From assembly GCF_000025865.1 (NCBI RefSeq), contig NC_014002.1, positions 868,001-932,000 on the forward strand: a stretch of 64,000 nt of DNA. The letters run 5' to 3'. Position numbers and translations under genes: made by a program. Numbering within the stretch: position 1 is the stretch's first letter; every line of letters starts with the position of its first letter. The DNA comes from Methanohalophilus mahii DSM 5219. Its GTDB lineage: Archaea; Halobacteriota; Methanosarcinia; Methanosarcinales; Methanosarcinaceae. Shown piece by piece: positions 6,054-44,100 of this stretch. Below the pieces are notes generated by a model, which worked only from the letters and a program-made list of their open reading frames with translations, made no database searches and was not told the DNA's origin.

Positions 6054-8528
6054 ATGGCAGACTATGATGATATAAATCCTCTCGATGAAAAAATCGAACA
6101 GCATGACGGAGAAGGTGGACGTGTAGTTCCGGTGCTTATCCAGGATGAAATGAAGCGTTCATATATTGATTACTCGATGAGTGTTATTGTGGGAAGGGCA
6201 CTACCTGATGCCCGTGATGGTCTGAAGCCGGTACATCGCCGTATTCTTCATTCGATGAATGAAGCCGGTATTACTCATGATAAGGCGTACAAGAAATCTG
6301 CCCGTGTAGTGGGTGATGTATTGGGTAAGTTCCATCCGCACGGTGATACTGCTGTGTATGACAGTTTGGTGCGTATGGTCCAGGACTTTTCCCTGCGTTA
6401 TCCGTTAATAGATGGGCAGGGTAACTTTGGATCTGTTGATGGTGATTCTGCTGCGGCAATGCGTTATACAGAAGTCCGCATGGATAAAATAACCACTGAA
6501 ATGCTTGAGGATATCAAAAAGGGAACTGTTGATTTCAAGCCTAACTATGATGGTTCCCTGGAGGAACCTGAAGTCCTGCCTTCAAAGTTGCCAAACCTGC
6601 TCTTGAATGGCTCCACCGGTATTGCTGTGGGAATGGCGACCAACATGGCTCCTCATAATCTCGGGGAGGTCGTGGATGCTACTGTCAAATTGATTGATGA
6701 CCCTGAAACTGAACTTGCAGAACTTCGAAAGATCGTTAAAGGACCGGATTTTCCTACTGGTGGTATCATAATGGGTACCAGTGGGATCAAGAGTGCCTAT
6801 GAGACAGGACGTTCCCCTATCTACCTGCGTGCAGTGACTGAGATAGAGGAGATGAAGAATGATAAATACCGCATAGTTGTATACGAACTTCCTTATCAGG
6901 TGAACAAGGCACGCCTTGTGGAATCCATCGCCAACCTCGTGAGGGATAAAAAAATAGAGGGTATTTCGGATCTGAGGGATGAATCCGGCAGGGAAGGTAT
7001 GCGGGTGGTAATTGAACTTAAGAAGGCAGCCAACCCCAAAGTCCTGCTTAACCAGCTCTACAAACAGACCCAGCTTGAAACCACATTTGGTATCATTAAC
7101 CTGGCTCTGGTTGACGGGGTCCCTCGCGTTCTTAATCTCAGGGAACTGATCCAGATATATCTCAAACATCGTATAGATGTTATCAGTAGGCGTACAGTTT
7201 TTGATCTAAGGAAAGCCGAGGAAAGAGCACATATTCTACAGGGGCTAAAGGTCGCGTTGGATAACATCGATGAAGTTATCAAATTGATACGCGGCTCTTC
7301 TACCACAGAGGAGGCAAGGGAAGGGCTTATAAGTAATTTCGATCTGGATGAAATTCAGGCCAAAGCCATTTTGGACATGAAGCTGCAGCGTCTGACTGGA
7401 TTGGAGAGGCAAAAGATCGATGAAGAGTATAATGGTCTGATCGATACAATTGCCGACCTTAAAGATATCCTTGCAAACGATGAGCGTAAATATGCGATTA
7501 TCAGGGATGAAGTACTGGAGTTGAAGGATAAATATGGTGATGAGCGCAGAACCCTTATTCAATCTAGCCGTGAAGAACTTGCGGATGAAGACCTGATACC
7601 CGAGGAAGAAGTGGTTGTAACCTCTACACAGAGTGGTTATATCAAGAATATCCCTCTCCAGACATATAATATGCAGCATCGGGGCGGTCGTGGTGTGAGA
7701 GGGATGGAAACAAAGGAGGATGACACTGTGGGAAGCATCTTTGTGGCTTCTACCCACGATTATATCCTCTTTTTCACAAACCGTGGTAAGGTTTACTGGC
7801 AAAAGGTCTATGATATTCCCCGGGGAAGCCGCCAGTCCAGAGGGAAGGCTATTGTGAACCTGCTGGAACTTGCTGAAGGGGAATCAGTAAATGCTATGAT
7901 CCCGGTGCATGATTTTGAGAATGATCGCTACCTGTTCATGGGCACCCGTGATGGGACTGTGAAACGTTGCAGTCTTTCGGATTTCAGTAATCCCCGCAAG
8001 GCCGGTATTATTGCGATTTCCCTGAAAGAGGGGGATGAACTTGTAAATGTTCTCCAGACCGACGGAAATCAGGACATAATGCTGGCTTCAAGGCATGGTA
8101 AAGCCCTGCGTATCTCTGAAGAAGATGTGCGTGTGATGGGCAGGACTGCCCGTGGTGTGAGGGGCATGAAACTGGCAGGTCCGGATGTTATTGTAAGCCT
8201 GGATGTTGTAGATTCTGATGGTACCCTGCTGACCGTTACAGAGAATGGTTTTGGCAAACGCACGCCATTTGATGAGTACCGCACCCTTCGTCGTGGAGGG
8301 CAGGGAGTGATAACCATTTTCACTGATATGCGCAATGGTCCCGTGGTCACTGTAAAAACAGTGGAAGATGATGATGAGATCATCCTGACAAGCTCTGCCG
8401 GCATTGTGATGCGTATCCCTGTGACAGATATTAGGGTGCAGGGGCGTAACACCAAGGGTGTAAAAATTATGAATATCAGGGAGAAGGATAAATTGGTCAG
8501 TTTGGCCAGGATTAAAAAAGAGGAGTAA
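6054..8528 (+). CDS. gyrA: DNA gyrase subunit A
   Basis: DNA cleavage and wrapping subunit of gyrase, 824 residues. ATG 6054 is preceded by GAGGTGG. The catalytic tyrosine is Tyr138 in [11 protein letters not shown]. The quinolone-pocket region reads [11 protein letters not shown], with Thr99 where E. coli has Ser83 and Asp103 matching Asp87. The C-terminal half is a six-bladed beta-pinwheel with repeated G[RK]GxRGM motifs; the GyrA box is QHRGGRG rather than the canonical QRRGGKG, which still gives a positively charged wrapping strip. Translationally close to gyrB (11-base gap), so both are probably one transcript ending at the hairpin overlapping the stop codon. Confidence 0.97.
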
Positions 8529-8551
8529 GTGTAGCCTTTAAGGTTACACTT
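8527..8551. terminator. Hairpin between convergent gyrA and symporter genes
   Basis: An 11-bp stem (AAGTGTAGCCT paired with AGGTTACACTT, one G-T pair) and a 3-base loop spans both stop codons of the convergent genes. It could end transcription or protect the 3' ends from either side. No long T-run follows, so the terminator role is inferred from position and stem strength. Confidence 0.55.
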
Positions 8552-10133
8552 ATTTCCCGTAACATCTTTTTATATGTTCTGTAGGTGTCGGTTCTGTCAT
8601 ATAACTAACAACAACGGCTACGATTGCTGCAAGGGGTGTTGCAACGAGAATCGGGTCCACAACTGTCCAGGTGCCGGTCAGGAGAGTATCCGTTCCGAAT
8701 ATGAATTTGCAGATTCCCAGCGGGACTGCTTCTTTTGCATGAACAAAACCCAGCCAGAACAGGCTTGCAAAGGTTCCAACTAACAGGCTTGCAGTCGCTC
8801 CCTCTTTTGTCATGCGTGGCCAGAACAAAGCTCCTGCATACATCGGTAAAAAGGCCGCTGCACATAATCCAAAAAAGATTGCTGTGGCACGGGCGATTAT
8901 ACTAATAGGCAGGATGTAAGCCAATATCACACTTATCAGAATGGTTGTTGCAATTCCCAATCTTGTAATATTGACAGTTTTGCCGACTTCACCTTTCTTG
9001 ACAAACTGGCGATAGAAATCATGTCCTATTGATGTTCCCATTGTATGGTACTGGGAACTTAAGGTTGACATGGCGGCTGCCAGTAAGGTTAACATGAATA
9101 GGATGACAAAAGTTTCAGGCATTGCATCGTTGATATATTGTGGAATTATCAGATCGGTATTTCCTCCCACTACAGCTACGGATATCAACCCTTCTGTTTT
9201 GTAAAAGAAAGCATTGGAAAGAGAACCGACTATAAAGGCAACCCCTGTCATCATCAAAATGAATGGCCCGCCTACAAGGACTGCCCGGTTCAATGCCCTG
9301 TCATTCTCCACTGTCATGAACCTAACAGCCAGTTGAGGTTGGGCAAGGACACCGATACCCACTCCCAGTATCAGGGTAGATACCAATGTCCACCAGATAG
9401 GCGAGCCCAAGGCGGGCATTGCCGTCCATCCCAGATGTCCCCCTGCTGCAAGTGAATCAGGAACCAGGGGTGTCATTGCTGTGAGTGTCTGATGTGCTTC
9501 AGTGATCCCTCCCAGTTTGATATAGGTAAGTGTAAGCAGGACAAGCATTCCTACGAACATGAATGCTCCCTGAAGGGCATCGGTGTACATAACTGCTATC
9601 AAACCCCCGGTGATAACGTATGCTGCAACAATTACCGTAAGTAAAAGGACTGCAACATCATAATTAATGCCCAGTGTTGCTTCAACAAAACGGGCTCCTC
9701 CAATCAGTACGATTCCTGCATAAAGGGGCATAAATACTCCAATTAGCGCACCCGAAAAACCCTGTATGAAACGTGACTGGAATCTGCGTCCTAGTAACTC
9801 AGGAAATGTAACCGCTTTTAGTCTTAATCCCATGCGGCGCGTTCTGGATCCAAAAAACACAAATGCGATGAGAATCCCGACAATGATGTTCATTACCGCA
9901 AGCCAGAGCAATCCCATTCCCAGTGCACCGGCAGCCCCGCCAAAACCAATGATTGCCGAGGTACTGATAAATGTGGCACCATAGGAAAGGGCAAGTATAT
10001 AGGGATTGATGTGCCTGCCGGCGACCATATAATCGTCAATTTCCTTTGTTTTTTTGTATCCAAGCATTCCCAGATAAAAAATTATCATGAGGTAGATCAG
10101 GACAATTACACCAAGGACTGGTGTGCTTATCAT
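8550..10133 (-). CDS. Sodium:solute symporter (SSS family)
   Basis: Membrane protein of about 527 residues with roughly 13 hydrophobic helices. It begins with the LIYLMIIFYLGMLGYKKTKEIDDYMVAGR pattern of SSS transporters (shown here only as family style: helix, then DYMVAGR) and contains the STSAIIGFGGAAG and YVITGGLIAVMYTDALQG segments that carry the family's Na+ and substrate sites. Members move proline, pantothenate, sugars or organic acids with Na+; the substrate here is unknown, compatible-solute or organic-acid uptake being likely in a salt-adapted methanogen. ATG 10133 has GGAGG seven bases upstream; the in-frame ATG at 10139 has it too close. It overlaps the end of the small accessory gene by four bases. 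Confidence 0.9.
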   Translation of the reverse strand: MISTPVLGVIVLIYLMIIFYLGMLGYKKTKEIDDYMVAGRHINPYILALSYGATFISTSAIIGFGGAAGALGMGLLWLAVMNIIVGILIAFVFFGSRTRRMGLRLKAVTFPELLGRRFQSRFIQGFSGALIGVFMPLYAGIVLIGGARFVEATLGINYDVAVLLLTVIVAAYVITGGLIAVMYTDALQGAFMFVGMLVLLTLTYIKLGGITEAHQTLTAMTPLVPDSLAAGGHLGWTAMPALGSPIWWTLVSTLILGVGIGVLAQPQLAVRFMTVENDRALNRAVLVGGPFILMMTGVAFIVGSLSNAFFYKTEGLISVAVVGGNTDLIIPQYINDAMPETFVILFMLTLLAAAMSTLSSQYHTMGTSIGHDFYRQFVKKGEVGKTVNITRLGIATTILISVILAYILPISIIARATAIFFGLCAAAFLPMYAGALFWPRMTKEGATASLLVGTFASLFWLGFVHAKEAVPLGICKFIFGTDTLLTGTWTVVDPILVATPLAAIVAVVVSYMTEPTPTEHIKRCYGK

Positions 10134-37099: not shown

Positions 37100-37840
37100 T
37101 CAGAGGTCTTCAATGATTCCCTGGTATTTTGAAGGATTGCCATTCTCATCACGAATTATAAGGGTCCTTTCAGCAACTTTGCGTATCTGGCCTTCTTTTG
37201 TGTATATCCGATATTCCTGATAGAAATCATTGTATCCTTCCCGGCATCTCCTGCTCAGCTCATCCTCTACTCTTTTTAGATCGTCTTTGTGGATAATTTC
37301 CCCGTAATTAAGATTACCTGAAAGGAATTCTTCTGTTGTGTAGCCATACTTTTCAATTTCATCTGAAACGTATTCTACAGGCCACCCCTTTTGTACTTTC
37401 CAGACAAATGCTACAACAGGACTTTTTGTAGATATCATATCCACACTCATCTCTTCGGAATCCATCTGGCCTGTGATGTCCATTACAAAACCCTGGAAAT
37501 GACAGGGTTCATCTTCGTTGTCCCTTTCTACAAGAGTCTTTTCCAGCACCCATCTTTCCTGGTCATCAGCAGTTAGTATCCTGTATCGATGGGTGTATTC
37601 TTTGATGCCTTCCTTACAGATGCGGCGTATGTTTTCTCTGACTTCATCGATATCATGTGGATGGATTATCTGTGCATAGGTCTTGTCCCCGGATATAAAA
37701 TCATCGGCATTGTATCCGAATTGCTGAATATTATCGGATACAAATTCAACCGGCCAGTCCCTTTCTGCATTCCATAGAAAAACTATTATGGGATTTTTGT
37801 ATTCTTGATTTTTGTCCTGCATAGGAATAATTTCCCCCAT
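37100..37840 (-). CDS. Two-PAS sensory protein without output domain
   Basis: 246 residues, made of two PAS/PAC modules and nothing else. Each carries the same phrase as the modules of the 840-residue sensor at 20.9-23.4 kb: DWPVEFVSDNIQQFGY and GWPVEYVSDEIEKYGY, followed by IHPHDIDEV and IHKDDLKRV. Start at 37840 or the ATG six codons later. It must act through partners or as a ligand sink. No heme-binding or Cys motif seen. Confidence 0.82.
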   Translation of the reverse strand: MGEIIPMQDKNQEYKNPIIVFLWNAERDWPVEFVSDNIQQFGYNADDFISGDKTYAQIIHPHDIDEVRENIRRICKEGIKEYTHRYRILTADDQERWVLEKTLVERDNEDEPCHFQGFVMDITGQMDSEEMSVDMISTKSPVVAFVWKVQKGWPVEYVSDEIEKYGYTTEEFLSGNLNYGEIIHKDDLKRVEDELSRRCREGYNDFYQEYRIYTKEGQIRKVAERTLIIRDENGNPSKYQGIIEDL

Positions 37841-39082: not shown

Positions 39083-40405
39083 TTACAGGACAAGAAGATA
39101 CAGTATGCCGGATATGAGGGCACCCGTGGCAGTTGCTACAAAATTGACTCCACTATTGGACAGGTAACCTTTTTTCTGGAATGTAGCACCAAGTAAACTA
39201 TCGATATTTGTTCCTCCCCATCCGCCTGCGCATGTAATAAGTATGGCAGGAACTATCTGCTCCACAAACCCAAAGGCGGCTCCAAGTATTCCTATTGCCA
39301 GTGCTCCACCAAAGGCTGCAAGTTCTCCAAGTGAAGTTACAGCTCCGTCAGTACCGGTTTTTGTAGGTTTTAAGCTTGTTATCATCCTGGGTGTCTGGCG
39401 GGCGGTTGTTCCGATTTCACTTGCGAGTGTGTCCCCTGCAGCTGTTGCTACGGTTCCCAGGAAAGCATATGTTATTAGGTTGCTATGTTGGGGATATATG
39501 CCATATGCAATGGCAAGCACAAGTGCAGCAGTACTGTTGCTGAATACATTTTCATAAGTCCGTACTCCACCCTTCTCCTGTGCGATACCCAGGCCCAGCT
39601 TATAGTTGTATTTGTATTTGGTGAATACTCCTCCGAGTATGAAAAAAGTAAGAAGTAAAACAAACCAGAGGATGTTACTAAAAACAATAATCAAAACTCC
39701 CATAAGTGTAGCACTCAACACTGCGGAAATATCGGCTATATTGGTGCGGTATGCCAGATACCCCAAAAAGAGTGCAAAAAAGAAAGCAATCAATAAATGT
39801 AAAGGTGCAACTGAGTAACCAAAGGCTGCAAGAACCCACATTGCCATTGCCGAACCCATGGTCATTGAAAAAAGCCGGTCTACGGAGGATGGTATGGATT
39901 CAAAAAGAGCTGCTGTTATTGCTCCGATTACTGCTATGAAGAATATAAGTTCGTATGATACAGTGGATGTCCAGTATGCATACCATGAACCTGCTATAAA
40001 GGCAGAAGAGGCACCTGCTATTAATAAAGCAAGGCTTGATTGGAGATTGGTAGTATTTTCTTGTGAGTCCTTGTTGGTTTTGCAGCGCACTATGGTGGCA
40101 CATGTAAAGCCGATGGTAGAGATCTGGATTGCTGCTACAATTATGTATTTTGGCAGGGAATAAGAATAGATATTTGCAGTAGCACTTATCAAAAGTAACA
40201 AAACGACTGATACAATAAGATTGATTACATTCCTATTGCTATTGGTAATGTAGATATATACGCCGGCACCTGCAAAAATCAGAAATAAGATTTCCCTGCT
40301 TAAGAATGGAAATATGAGCATGGAAACTAATGCGATAGTTATGAAATAGAGGGTATAGTTTTTCCCTTCATCGTCTCCGGTAAAACATTTTGGCCAGCTC
40401 GTCAT
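39083..40405 (-). CDS. DUF92 (TIGR00297) integral membrane protein
   Basis: About 440 residues with some twelve helices. The C-terminal half carries the DUF92 signature: GVFTKYKYNYK, GTVATAAGDTLASEIG, LKPTKTGTDGAVTSLGELAA and GGWGGTNIDSLLGATFQKKG. Plant VTE6 of this family is a phytyl-phosphate kinase; the archaeal proteins may phosphorylate isoprenoid phosphates for lipid synthesis, which is inference. The extra N-terminal half is a hydrophobic extension. ATG 40405 fits a TATAAATAA box 40 bases upstream; the open frame begins at 40456 with an unlikely polar leader. Confidence 0.82.
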   Translation of the reverse strand: MTSWPKCFTGDDEGKNYTLYFITIALVSMLIFPFLSREILFLIFAGAGVYIYITNSNRNVINLIVSVVLLLLISATANIYSYSLPKYIIVAAIQISTIGFTCATIVRCKTNKDSQENTTNLQSSLALLIAGASSAFIAGSWYAYWTSTVSYELIFFIAVIGAITAALFESIPSSVDRLFSMTMGSAMAMWVLAAFGYSVAPLHLLIAFFFALFLGYLAYRTNIADISAVLSATLMGVLIIVFSNILWFVLLLTFFILGGVFTKYKYNYKLGLGIAQEKGGVRTYENVFSNSTAALVLAIAYGIYPQHSNLITYAFLGTVATAAGDTLASEIGTTARQTPRMITSLKPTKTGTDGAVTSLGELAAFGGALAIGILGAAFGFVEQIVPAILITCAGGWGGTNIDSLLGATFQKKGYLSNSGVNFVATATGALISGILYLLVL

Positions 40406-40660
40406 GAAAATCAGAGGTTTTTGTTTAATAAAGCACTGATTATTTATAAAAGTCATCTTTTAGTGTAATTTATTTTTTAACATGTATTTGTGCAACAAAC
40501 AACAAAATTAATTGTCGATGATCTGTTTAAAGCGATTAATATTTCGGTTTGTAATCAAAACCATGCATAATAAATATATATTAATGCACTATATTTATAG
40601 TTTATAGTCCAAAAGTATATATTCATGTTCTTTCCTAAGGAAGCATTAAGGAGTGGTAGA

Positions 40661-40804
40661 ATGAACCAAAATGACTGTCTTTTAAAAAATTGCCCGATTT
40701 GCGGAACAGATCTCAGGGAAAACAATGATTATCAGATATGTGAATGCTGTCATTACTGGACTCAAAAAGGCCAGGCTAGAATAGATTCAATTCTGATATG
40801 CTAA
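40661..40804 (+). CDS. Small zinc-ribbon-like protein, 47 residues
   Basis: Starts MNQNDCLLKNCPICGTDLRE; two knuckles, NCPICG and ICECCHYW, form a four-Cys zinc site (an extra Cys6). AAGGAGTGG precedes the ATG by three bases, one of the best ribosome sites in the window. A TATA-like stretch lies near 40590-40620. Followed after 14 bases by another Cys-rich ORF. No family named. Confidence 0.75.
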   Translation: MNQNDCLLKNCPICGTDLRENNDYQICECCHYWTQKGQARIDSILIC

Positions 40805-40818
40805 CATGAAGGGTTACA

Positions 40819-40938
40819 ATGTGCCAGATCGAAAAGTTTGGTTATTCTCAGGAAAACAAAGAAACGTTTTGTTCAGATTGCATAATATGGAATACTATTG
40901 GTAAATGTGCATTTTTGCAGGAATGTGAATCCAAATAG
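40819..40938 (+). CDS. Small Cys-rich protein, 39 residues
   Basis: Reads MCQIEKFGYSQENKETFCSD, then CIIWNTIGKCAFLQECESK. Cys at 2, 18, 21, 30 and 36; C-x2-C plus C-x5-C suggest a zinc or Fe-S site. GAAGGG lies five bases before the ATG. Tandem with the preceding zinc-ribbon ORF, likely one transcript. Family unknown. Confidence 0.68.
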   Translation: MCQIEKFGYSQENKETFCSDCIIWNTIGKCAFLQECESK

Positions 40939-41119
40939 CAAAAAGCAAAATCAATAGGTGGTAACATTGATTATAGGCAAATAAGAATGTGGACCGCCAA
41001 ATCCCTTTGATTACATTTTTATTGTTCTGCGATGATTTTATGTCCGGACAATAACTTTAAATTTTAGTAGATCATAGTAGTATATCAATTGATTTAGTGG
41101 ACCGTGGTGGTAGGTTCAA

Positions 41120-44100
41120 ATGAGAATGGGGCACAAAAACATTTTTTTAAGATTTACTTTAGTCTTACTTTTGGCAATTACTCTATGTCATCCAGTTGTT
41201 GCTGTAAATAATTTGAATGATGACTTTTCCTTTTATTCGGATGAAGTAAATGTTTCACAGACTAATGGTTCTCTGTCCCATTATAATGACACATATGAGA
41301 ACATTTCATCTTTTTACTTATCAGGAAACTATAATCAATCATTGGCAGTTTCCAAAAGGGTTCTAGATTCCAATCCCAATTCTACTTATGCCCTTTACAT
41401 GGCTGGCCTGAGTCTCGAAAAGCTGGCTAGTGAGAATAAAGCTATACAATATTATGAAAAAGCTCTTCGAAACCTAAAGGATACTGAGAATCAAAATATC
41501 ACTGAACTGGTCAATAATCCTGATCTGGAAACATTGCCAGTTCTATTCCTTAAAGGAAAAATAAGCCATTTAGAGGGTAATTATAATGATTCGCTTACTT
41601 ATCAGGATGCAGCATTAAGTGCTTATGGATATCATTCTGAAGACCTCTACAATAAGGGCCTGTATCACAAAAATGAAGGCAATCACGAGGATGCAATCGA
41701 ACATTTCCAGGCTGCTTTGCGTATCAATCCCTCAAAAACAGATTCCTGGGCACAGCTAGGGGAATGCTATGAAGCTATTGGAGAGTACCAGACAGCACAG
41801 GATAATTATGATAAAGCCCTCCAAAGGAAACCCAATGATTCTGAATTATTATTGAAGTATGGCCTTGTTGCAGAAAAAATGGATGATCACAGCCTGGCCA
41901 TTGAATATTATGACAGGGTGCTTGAGATACAGCCATACAATGTGGATTCATGGAAATATAAAGCCCGCAGTCTTGAAGCATTGGATCAGAATAATTATGC
42001 TCTAACCTGTTACAATCAGGCCCTGAAATACGATCCGGAAAATAAGGCACTATGGAACCTTAAGGGACAATTACTGGATAAAATGGGAAGATATGAGGAA
42101 TCGATTGAATGCTATGATCAGGCCCTGAAATTAAATCCGGATCATGCACGTGGTATTGGACGTGTATCAGAGGCACCATCAATTATCATTTCTGCCGATT
42201 CTCATGAGGTATTCTATGAAACACCACAGTTTGATTCAGAGGCTGCCCAGACACTGTTCAATAAAGGTGAAGCATTCTACAGGCTGGAAAAATATGATGA
42301 TGCACTTGAATGCTACAATGACGTAATTGAAACAGAACCTCATGCGGTCGTATGGTATCGAAAGGCCACTATTCTGAAAAACAATGGTGATTTTTCCGAA
42401 GCTATCGATAGCTATGAAGAGGCCCTTGATATTGAATCTGACGCTCCTGCGGTATGGTATGAACAGGCAGTATTACTTGACAGGATAGGCGAGTATAGAA
42501 AGGCGGTAAAGAGCTATGATGAGGCCACAGAAAGGGATGAGAACTATACCCTTGCCTGGTATGAGATGGCTGTTGACCTGAAAATACTGGGTAAATACGA
42601 TCAATCTTTAGCGGCTTATGATAAGGTCTGTGAACTTGAGTCATCCTCAGCACAGGTGTGGTATGAAAGAGGGGCCGTTCTGGATGAACTTGGAAGATAT
42701 GAGGAAGCTATCAATTCTTATGAAAAAGTCCTTGAACTGGATCCTGGCCACTCAGCAGCTAGTTATCAACTAAGGACTGACCAGAGTAAGTTATTAGAAT
42801 CCAATCAAAAAGAATCTGATCACAAGAATAATTTTCATTACACAAGCAATTCCCCCTTCCTTGATTTCCTTAAGAGTCACGGATTTGATCTAACTTTCAT
42901 GGCAAATGGGAAAGATAAGTCCGTCAATCCCCTTACATCTATTGAAGATGGTAATTTGCCAGCTCCCGAATACCTATGGTATTCACGCGCCATGACGATG
43001 TCAGCAGTAAATAATACCAATAAATCTCTCTCTTCATTTGAAATGGCTACAATGATAGAACCTGATTATGCAGCTGCCTGGGAAGGTAAAGGGGATCTTT
43101 TCAAAAAATACAATCAATGGGCCGATTCTTCAGATGCGTTTAAGCAGGCTCTTTCAGTTAATTCCGATTCTGTGCAATTGTGGCATAAATATGCAATAGT
43201 ATCACAAAAGGCAGGTGACCTGCAGACTGCCCTGTATGCTTACGGAAGAGTAGTAGAGAAGGATCCGAATAATGGGGATGCTCTGTATAACAGGGGATTG
43301 ATATACGACAAACTTGGAAGTTTCAGGAATGCAGCCAATGCTTACCAGAAATATCTCAATTTGGAGCCAAAAGATATGGATACATGGTATCTGCTGGCCC
43401 AATCCGCACACAAGGCAAGGATGTATGATGTATCTCTGAATGCAATTAATACTGTCATTAATGATCAGCCTTCAAATCAGGATGCTCTGTATCTCAAATC
43501 TGATAATCTTGAAAAGATGGGCCGTTTCAGTGATGCGATAGTTGTTTATGATGAGATTCTGGAGTCAGATCCCCAAAACCAGGATGCATTGTTCAATAAG
43601 GGGTTGGCTTTTGAAAATATCGGACAATACCAGAAAGCGATCGAATGCTATGAACAGTTACTTGACGTTAATCCACAGCATGTTACTGCAATGGAGCATA
43701 AAGGGTTTGATCTATACCTGCTTGGAGAGTACAATAAAGCTGATGTTGTATACAATCAGATCCTGGAGATCGAGCCCAACAACGCTGACGCTCTCTATCA
43801 CAAGGCTACCATCAAGTATCTGTTGAGTAGCTATGCAGGTTCAATAATGTATTATGACCGTCTACTTGAGGTGAAACCAAATTGCATTACTGCATGGTAC
43901 AACAAAGGATTTGCCAATAATATGATGGGCAATGTCGATGAGGCAATAGAATGTTACGATCAGGCCCTTTCGATTGATCCGAACAATCCTTCTGTGCTTT
44001 ACAATAAGCGGTTTGCCCTTTATAGAATAGGTAAATCTTCCGAGGCAAAGACAGCCAAACTGAAGCTTGATTCCATAGATCCGGTTTTTGAAGAGGCTCT

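Follow-up and report, generated by a model that had tools for sequence, protein, structure and literature searches.

We found that two adjacent open reading frames of a halophilic, methanogenic archaeon, which encode tiny cysteine-rich proteins and are hereafter called A and C, are both genuine small protein genes, and that the A-C pair is the form taken in Methanohalophilus by a cassette of tiny cysteine proteins that occurs in the Methanosarcinaceae. Metal- or redox-responsive accessory proteins that act by binding a partner are our best explanation of the pair, one that we hold at just under even confidence.

Two small genes and the cassette they belong to

The window, that is the whole stretch of DNA analysed, covers 64 kb of a 2,012,424-base Methanohalophilus genome. 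An earlier note made from the sequence had described the two ORFs, and its coordinates proved exact: A occupies 40661-40804 on the plus strand, encodes 47 amino acids with the motifs NCPICG and ICECCHYW and stops at TAA, and C occupies 40819-40938 on the plus strand and encodes 39 amino acids with five cysteines up to a TAG at 40936-40938. The spacing of 14 bases between them is likewise confirmed, as is the emptiness of the DNA around the two ORFs: the left neighbour of A is a minus-strand membrane-protein gene with its 5' end at 40456, the right neighbour of C is a TPR-like gene on the plus strand starting at 41120, and no RNA family of Rfam was matched in 40300-41300.

Upstream of A, a TATA-like promoter element read in the sequence (AAAAGTATATATTC, 40611-40624, plus strand), with a putative function, is kept in the 5 congeners retaining this upstream region (own genome counted). 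Of the Shine-Dalgarno sites that the note had assigned to both ORFs, the one of A is strong and the one of C is weak. The site of A (AAGGAG, 40648-40653, plus strand) pairs at -7.5 kcal/mol with the anti-SD core, whose letters we assumed, a strength that puts it level with the best 4.5% of random 20-mers taken from the window, and it too is kept in the congeners retaining the region. The Shine-Dalgarno-like site of C (AAGGG, 40809-40813, plus strand, within the 14-base gap) reaches an unexceptional -3.8 kcal/mol, within the top 26% of such 20-mers. Elsewhere in the window, the translation of 37100-37840 reads as a 246-residue protein whose halves resemble tandem copies of one PAS-like domain.

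Single-sequence queries matched A in 37 of 60 relatives and C in 13 of 60, which argues that the ORFs are more than chance, and found A in another family of the same order as well. With profile searches, A was found in 96 and C in 40 of 111 genomes of the taxonomic family. Among 392 genomes drawn from the phylum, A was found in 59 and C in 26, and among the matches listed all were in that same family. In these searches, families A and C are restricted to the Methanosarcinaceae and near relatives. Furthermore, A had no match in phages and the locus none in plasmids, so that nothing points to an origin from a plasmid or virus.

In 24 aligned A proteins, C11, C14, C27, C30, Q25 and, after the last of these cysteines, YWT are invariant; a GTARxDSI-like tail follows. 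The protein has one CPXCG motif (CPICG) and one CxxC without the glycine (CECCH), at which place several relatives have CxxCG. Nothing significant was found for A in Pfam or NCBIfam. The "zinc-ribbon-like" description of the earlier note suits A, which gives weak, generic profile matches to many zinc ribbons and an AlphaFold2 model that is ribbon-like with no predicted helix (mean pLDDT 72.5, 4 sequences), but does not extend to C, which is predicted to be helical and has no profile relationship to A or to a third family, B (hhalign 6% and 4%, respectively).

Family C shows invariant C2, C18, C21 and C30 in 12 aligned proteins, with the spacing C-x15-C-x2-C-x8-C and hence a single CxxC, and nothing significant in Pfam or NCBIfam. 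Its AlphaFold2 model (63 residues, 14 sequences) has four helices with the invariant cysteines at helix ends; the best model has a core pLDDT of about 80 and a poorly modelled tail, and the other four of five models have a mean pLDDT of 46 to 54. Comparison of the model with PDB folds gave no good match, the single match being at E 9.2. C is probably an all-helical four-cysteine family unrelated to A and B, and a ribbon fold is unlikely. WhiB-like Fe-S proteins carry C-xn-C-x2-C-x5-C in a small helical protein. We rejected C as a protein of this kind, as its cysteine spacing differs and 0 of 12 members match the Pfam Whib model at E up to 1. In one genus of the Methanosarcinaceae, a conserved ORF of 112 residues (L077:10201-10539, L076:10088-10426 and L079:2437-2775) shares DNA with C in a different frame; the one copy tried gave no Pfam match.

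Family B, the wider cassette and the TAG of C add to the picture given in the earlier note. B is a mini-ribbon found by profile search in 93 of 111 genomes of the taxonomic family; its members have only weak NCBIfam matches, and it is related to A, likewise a zinc ribbon (hhalign probability 76%). On the mapped loci the cassette takes the form A-B, B-C, A-B-C or A-C. The A-B arrangement prevails in most genera, Methanohalobium has B-C, Methanolobus has B-C with overlapping reading frames, one further Methanosarcinaceae genus has A-B-C (L083), and Methanohalophilus has A-C, with a second A copy that has its own B (L088). We examined 31 C loci, drawn from 30 of the 40 genomes that matched C. In 27 of these loci the gene directly upstream is an A or a B, at a gap of -10 to 77 nt. 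The 4 remaining loci belong to three genomes of one genus (G034, G010 and G132) and to one Methanohalophilus with an insertion.

A search of the neighbourhood for a functional partner found no neighbour that is constant across genera, the context being common only to close genera. A PEP synthase/PPDK-type gene lies at most 4.5 kb from the A gene in 8 of 32 hand-picked loci without C, upstream and on the same strand in 5 (L095, L100, L103, L107 and L120, from three genera, g8, g11 and g5, the last being Methanolobus), a proximity that may reflect shared descent. Other loci of g8 and g11 have A-B near pyruvate kinase and aldolase genes.

Some small proteins (MtrI, MtrR, sP26, sP36) are known to influence central steps in the metabolism of methanogens, but most small proteins there are uncharacterised. 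Archaeal cysteine-rich micro-proteins are already known as a class; new here are the A-B-C cassette, the helical C family and a possible pyrrolysine form. We found no paper describing the cassette, judged on titles and abstract openings, and its members may sit unnamed in supplements. Three unnamed families travelling as a cassette through the Methanosarcinaceae make a short list to test, for which Methanosarcina, with A and B, and Methanolobus, with all three, are candidate hosts.

The TAG codon of C: stop or pyrrolysine

All five Methanohalophilus copies of C end in TAG, the codon of pyrrolysine, a rare amino acid counted as the 22nd. We regard it as a real possibility, somewhat short of an even chance, that C is a conditional pyrrolysine protein, in which the UAG at codon 40 would be read on methylamines to give a 63-residue form and would otherwise end a 39-residue form, so that the tail would couple the C protein to the methylamine state. 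PylS is present in 8/8 Methanohalophilus genomes, as is MtmB with an in-frame TAG. As the host carries PylS and decodes TAG within methyltransferases, C, with its own in-frame TAG in a pyrrolysine-encoding organism, may be a 63-residue pyrrolysine protein.

The candidate read-through extension (40939-41010, plus strand), seen on alignment of the congeners, comprises 23 codons followed by TGA. This frame is open and free of indels in 6/6 alignable congeners, including one that has lost the body of C, and the other two frames of the stretch contain stops. Column permutation of the stretch gave p = 0.037 with BLOSUM scores, so that its changes are mildly conservative, but the nonsynonymous fraction gave p = 0.116, the codon positions show no bias (4, 4 and 6), 7.9% of the permutations are also stop-free, and the next block, before the TPR gene, is conserved too. 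Homology of the tail to the tails of other genera was rejected (p 0.26 to 0.56), and in a further search the significant matches outside the genus end by residue 49. Folding revealed no RNA structure after the TAG (z -0.59). At first a TGG/TAG pair in Methanohalobium seemed to argue strongly for read-through; it was rejected because an indel of one base disrupts the frame some ten codons downstream.

How TAG is used in the rest of the genome and of the cassette speaks for the pyrrolysine reading. Over 464 kb of the genome (20 stretches plus the window), just 10 of the 378 ORFs with a length of 120 aa or above end in TAG. When TAG was read as K, Pfam matches crossed or passed it in 3 of these 10, namely the genes for a dimethylamine methyltransferase, for a major-facilitator transporter and for a PP-loop ATPase. 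In another three the family match ends before the TAG, and the remaining four match no family. The transporter ORF (L142:11158-12297; G000:C1, minus strand of the locus) is cut by its TAG with the Pfam MFS_1 match running across, and this TAG is likely a pyrrolysine codon outside the methyltransferases. In the PP-loop ATPase, which we take to be NcsA/CTU1-like, the TAG lies between the catalytic domain and a C-terminal zinc ribbon whose match is below the Pfam cut-off (L141:18938-19849; G000:C1, plus strand), making it a candidate for another read-through. In-frame TAG is thus often sense here, which raises the odds for a sense TAG in C. Counting distinct members of each family, 9 of 32 C genes terminate in TAG, the nine falling in three lineages only, against 3/55 for A and 2/56 for B (5/111 for the two together).

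In its fuller form, C would be a four-cysteine, possibly Fe-S, pyrrolysine micro-protein unlike the methylamine methyltransferases, made beside a zinc-ribbon partner and switched between its short and its 63-residue form by the pyrrolysine supply. We put this composite picture forward tentatively, with more doubt than the pyrrolysine codon itself. No such micro-protein was found in a non-exhaustive search of the literature. Should the TAG of C indeed be read, one small protein would exist in two forms through a stop codon of double meaning, a case of interest for how pyrrolysine organisms cope with an ambiguous UAG. A wider proposal holds that some archaea read all TAG as pyrrolysine. A published computational list of pyrrolysine candidates included M. 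mahii (PMC3639795). A pyrrolysine form of C is compatible with partner binding by accessory proteins, our best explanation.

Selection and loss within Methanohalophilus

The comparison within the genus covers eight Methanohalophilus genomes, the own and seven others. Orthologous A matches were found in 6/8, one of them broken, and C matches in 5/8, so that each of the two genes is absent or broken in 3/8. The adjacent intact pair is left in 3/8, and two genomes lack both genes. In M. profundi, an IS200/IS605 element (Y1 transposase plus TnpB-like OrfB) sits in the start of A (L074:8093-9769), in Methanohalophilus sp. RSK about 2.8 kb with a PAS-HAMP histidine kinase gene lie between A and C (L075:about 7150-10000), and in one genome (G004) most of C is deleted. 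Being lost or broken in several congeners, A and C are dispensable. The flanks of the RSK insertion overlap by 5 bases at the C start codon, which resembles a target-site duplication.

We measured selection by column permutation on the aligned Methanohalophilus copies. For C, 16 of 40 codon differences are nonsynonymous (p 0.011; BLOSUM p 0.001), indicating that purifying selection constrains C in this genus. The corresponding figure for A is 39 of 57 (p 0.42; BLOSUM 0.27), and purifying selection on it is not demonstrable at this level. The earlier note had named a frame not kept in relatives, or high nonsynonymous drift, as what would speak against the two genes: the frame is kept across genera and C is constrained, but A is indistinguishable from neutral within the genus.

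Another reading takes A and C as genes that are kept elsewhere but no longer needed in Methanohalophilus, where they would be decaying; we think it unlikely. The losses, the two interruptions and the neutral look of the A substitutions fit such a decay, but the purifying selection on C does not, and every family cysteine is kept in the A and C proteins.

A proposed role and its relatives among known systems

The metal binding and the regulatory or redox role that the earlier note had suggested for A and C appear plausible as predictions. Both proteins are tiny and cysteine-rich, and their genes are co-directional, separated by short gaps or overlapping, dispensable and lineage-restricted, with no signal or membrane part seen by eye. 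Such an anatomy is that of accessory small proteins and, together with the precedents of MtrI, MtrR, sORF_06 and Brz-Brb, favours partner binding. Also in favour of the accessory-protein explanation are the frames kept among relatives, the cassette arrangement, the selection on C, the homology of the A and B ribbons and the models of A and C. We counted against it that A is without significant selection within the genus, that no neighbour is constant across genera, that just 9 of 14 comparable Haloferax micro-proteins bound zinc, that the C model has no PDB match and four low-scoring sister models, and that G034, G010 and G132 have no A or B upstream of C.

Under the accessory-protein explanation, A and C would share one transcript, and translation of C may be helped by coupling to A, as suggested by the overlap of C with B in Methanolobus. 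A would fold around one zinc ion, and C, for which we infer an Fe-S or zinc site, would fold around a zinc ion or an Fe-S cluster with C2, C18, C21 and C30 as ligands. Both could then serve as cytosolic accessory regulators binding a larger partner, for example an enzyme complex or RNA polymerase, the activity of which they would alter with metal or redox state, as is proposed for MtrI on Mtr and as Brz-Brb does on bop transcription. Given that one or both genes are missing or broken in several congeners, the two proteins would fine-tune and not be essential.

TFS4 is a negative regulator of archaeal RNA polymerase. That A mimics the N-terminal ribbon of TFS/RPB9 as a free-standing decoy, docking on the RNA polymerase lobe and tuning transcription like TFS4, we consider improbable: A has the same cysteine spacing as that ribbon and a ribbon-like model, and TFS4 ranks first among PDB folds for the A model (7oqy_Y, Foldseek prob 0.94, E 0.19), second in the profile search against the PDB (E 6.6e-4) and weakly in NCBIfam (E 0.0079), but these matches are all weak and generic, with many other ribbons so close behind in profile and fold searches that TFS4 is a lead and no assignment, and A ends 17 residues after its sole ribbon, lacking the second of the two zinc ribbons of TFS/RPB9, with a YWT and ARxDSI-like tail that has no counterpart in TFS.

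Several known archaeal systems come close to the cassette proteins. The Haloferax C(P)XCG micro-proteins (HVO_2753, HVO_0758), some of which are reported to be needed for stress, biofilm or swarming, resemble A and C in being under 70 aa with paired cysteine motifs (PMC6562870, PMC11241148), and differ in that A has no significant family match and C has a single CxxC; one B member gave E 0.062 with the HVO_0758 model. Zinc binding was described for 9 of 14 tested predicted zinc-finger micro-proteins of Haloferax and not for 5, and AlphaFold2 is described there as unable to tell which (PMC11241148). In Halobacterium salinarum, the zinc-finger protein Brz and the basic mini-protein Brb are reported to act together on bop transcription, and their genes, which are transcribed together and encode a small zinc-finger protein and another tiny protein, resemble A-C in arrangement only (PMC3184054).

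Closer to the Methanosarcinaceae, sORF_06 of Methanosarcina mazei is reported to be translated and, upon overexpression, to lead to earlier stationary phase under nitrogen limitation (PMC11456600). By description, it is a small cytoplasmic protein with four conserved cysteines and Methanosarcinaceae homologues, like A and B (PMC11456600), and by that description alone it could be an A or B member. MtrI (MM_2401) of the same species is a zinc-ribbon protein with redox-dependent binding, reported as bound to Mtr on oxygen exposure (PMC12774963). At 68 aa, and with a 15-residue ribbon that leads into a long helical part, it is unlike A, which has 47 aa and no predicted helix, and it was absent among the PDB matches of the A, B and C profiles. 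Like A, MtrI is a tiny Methanosarcinales protein with a four-cysteine zinc ribbon, a patchy distribution and a varying gene context, and it binds a large complex (PMC12774963); MtrR, a small protein of the same organism family, is likewise reported to act by binding a large complex (PMC13370731).
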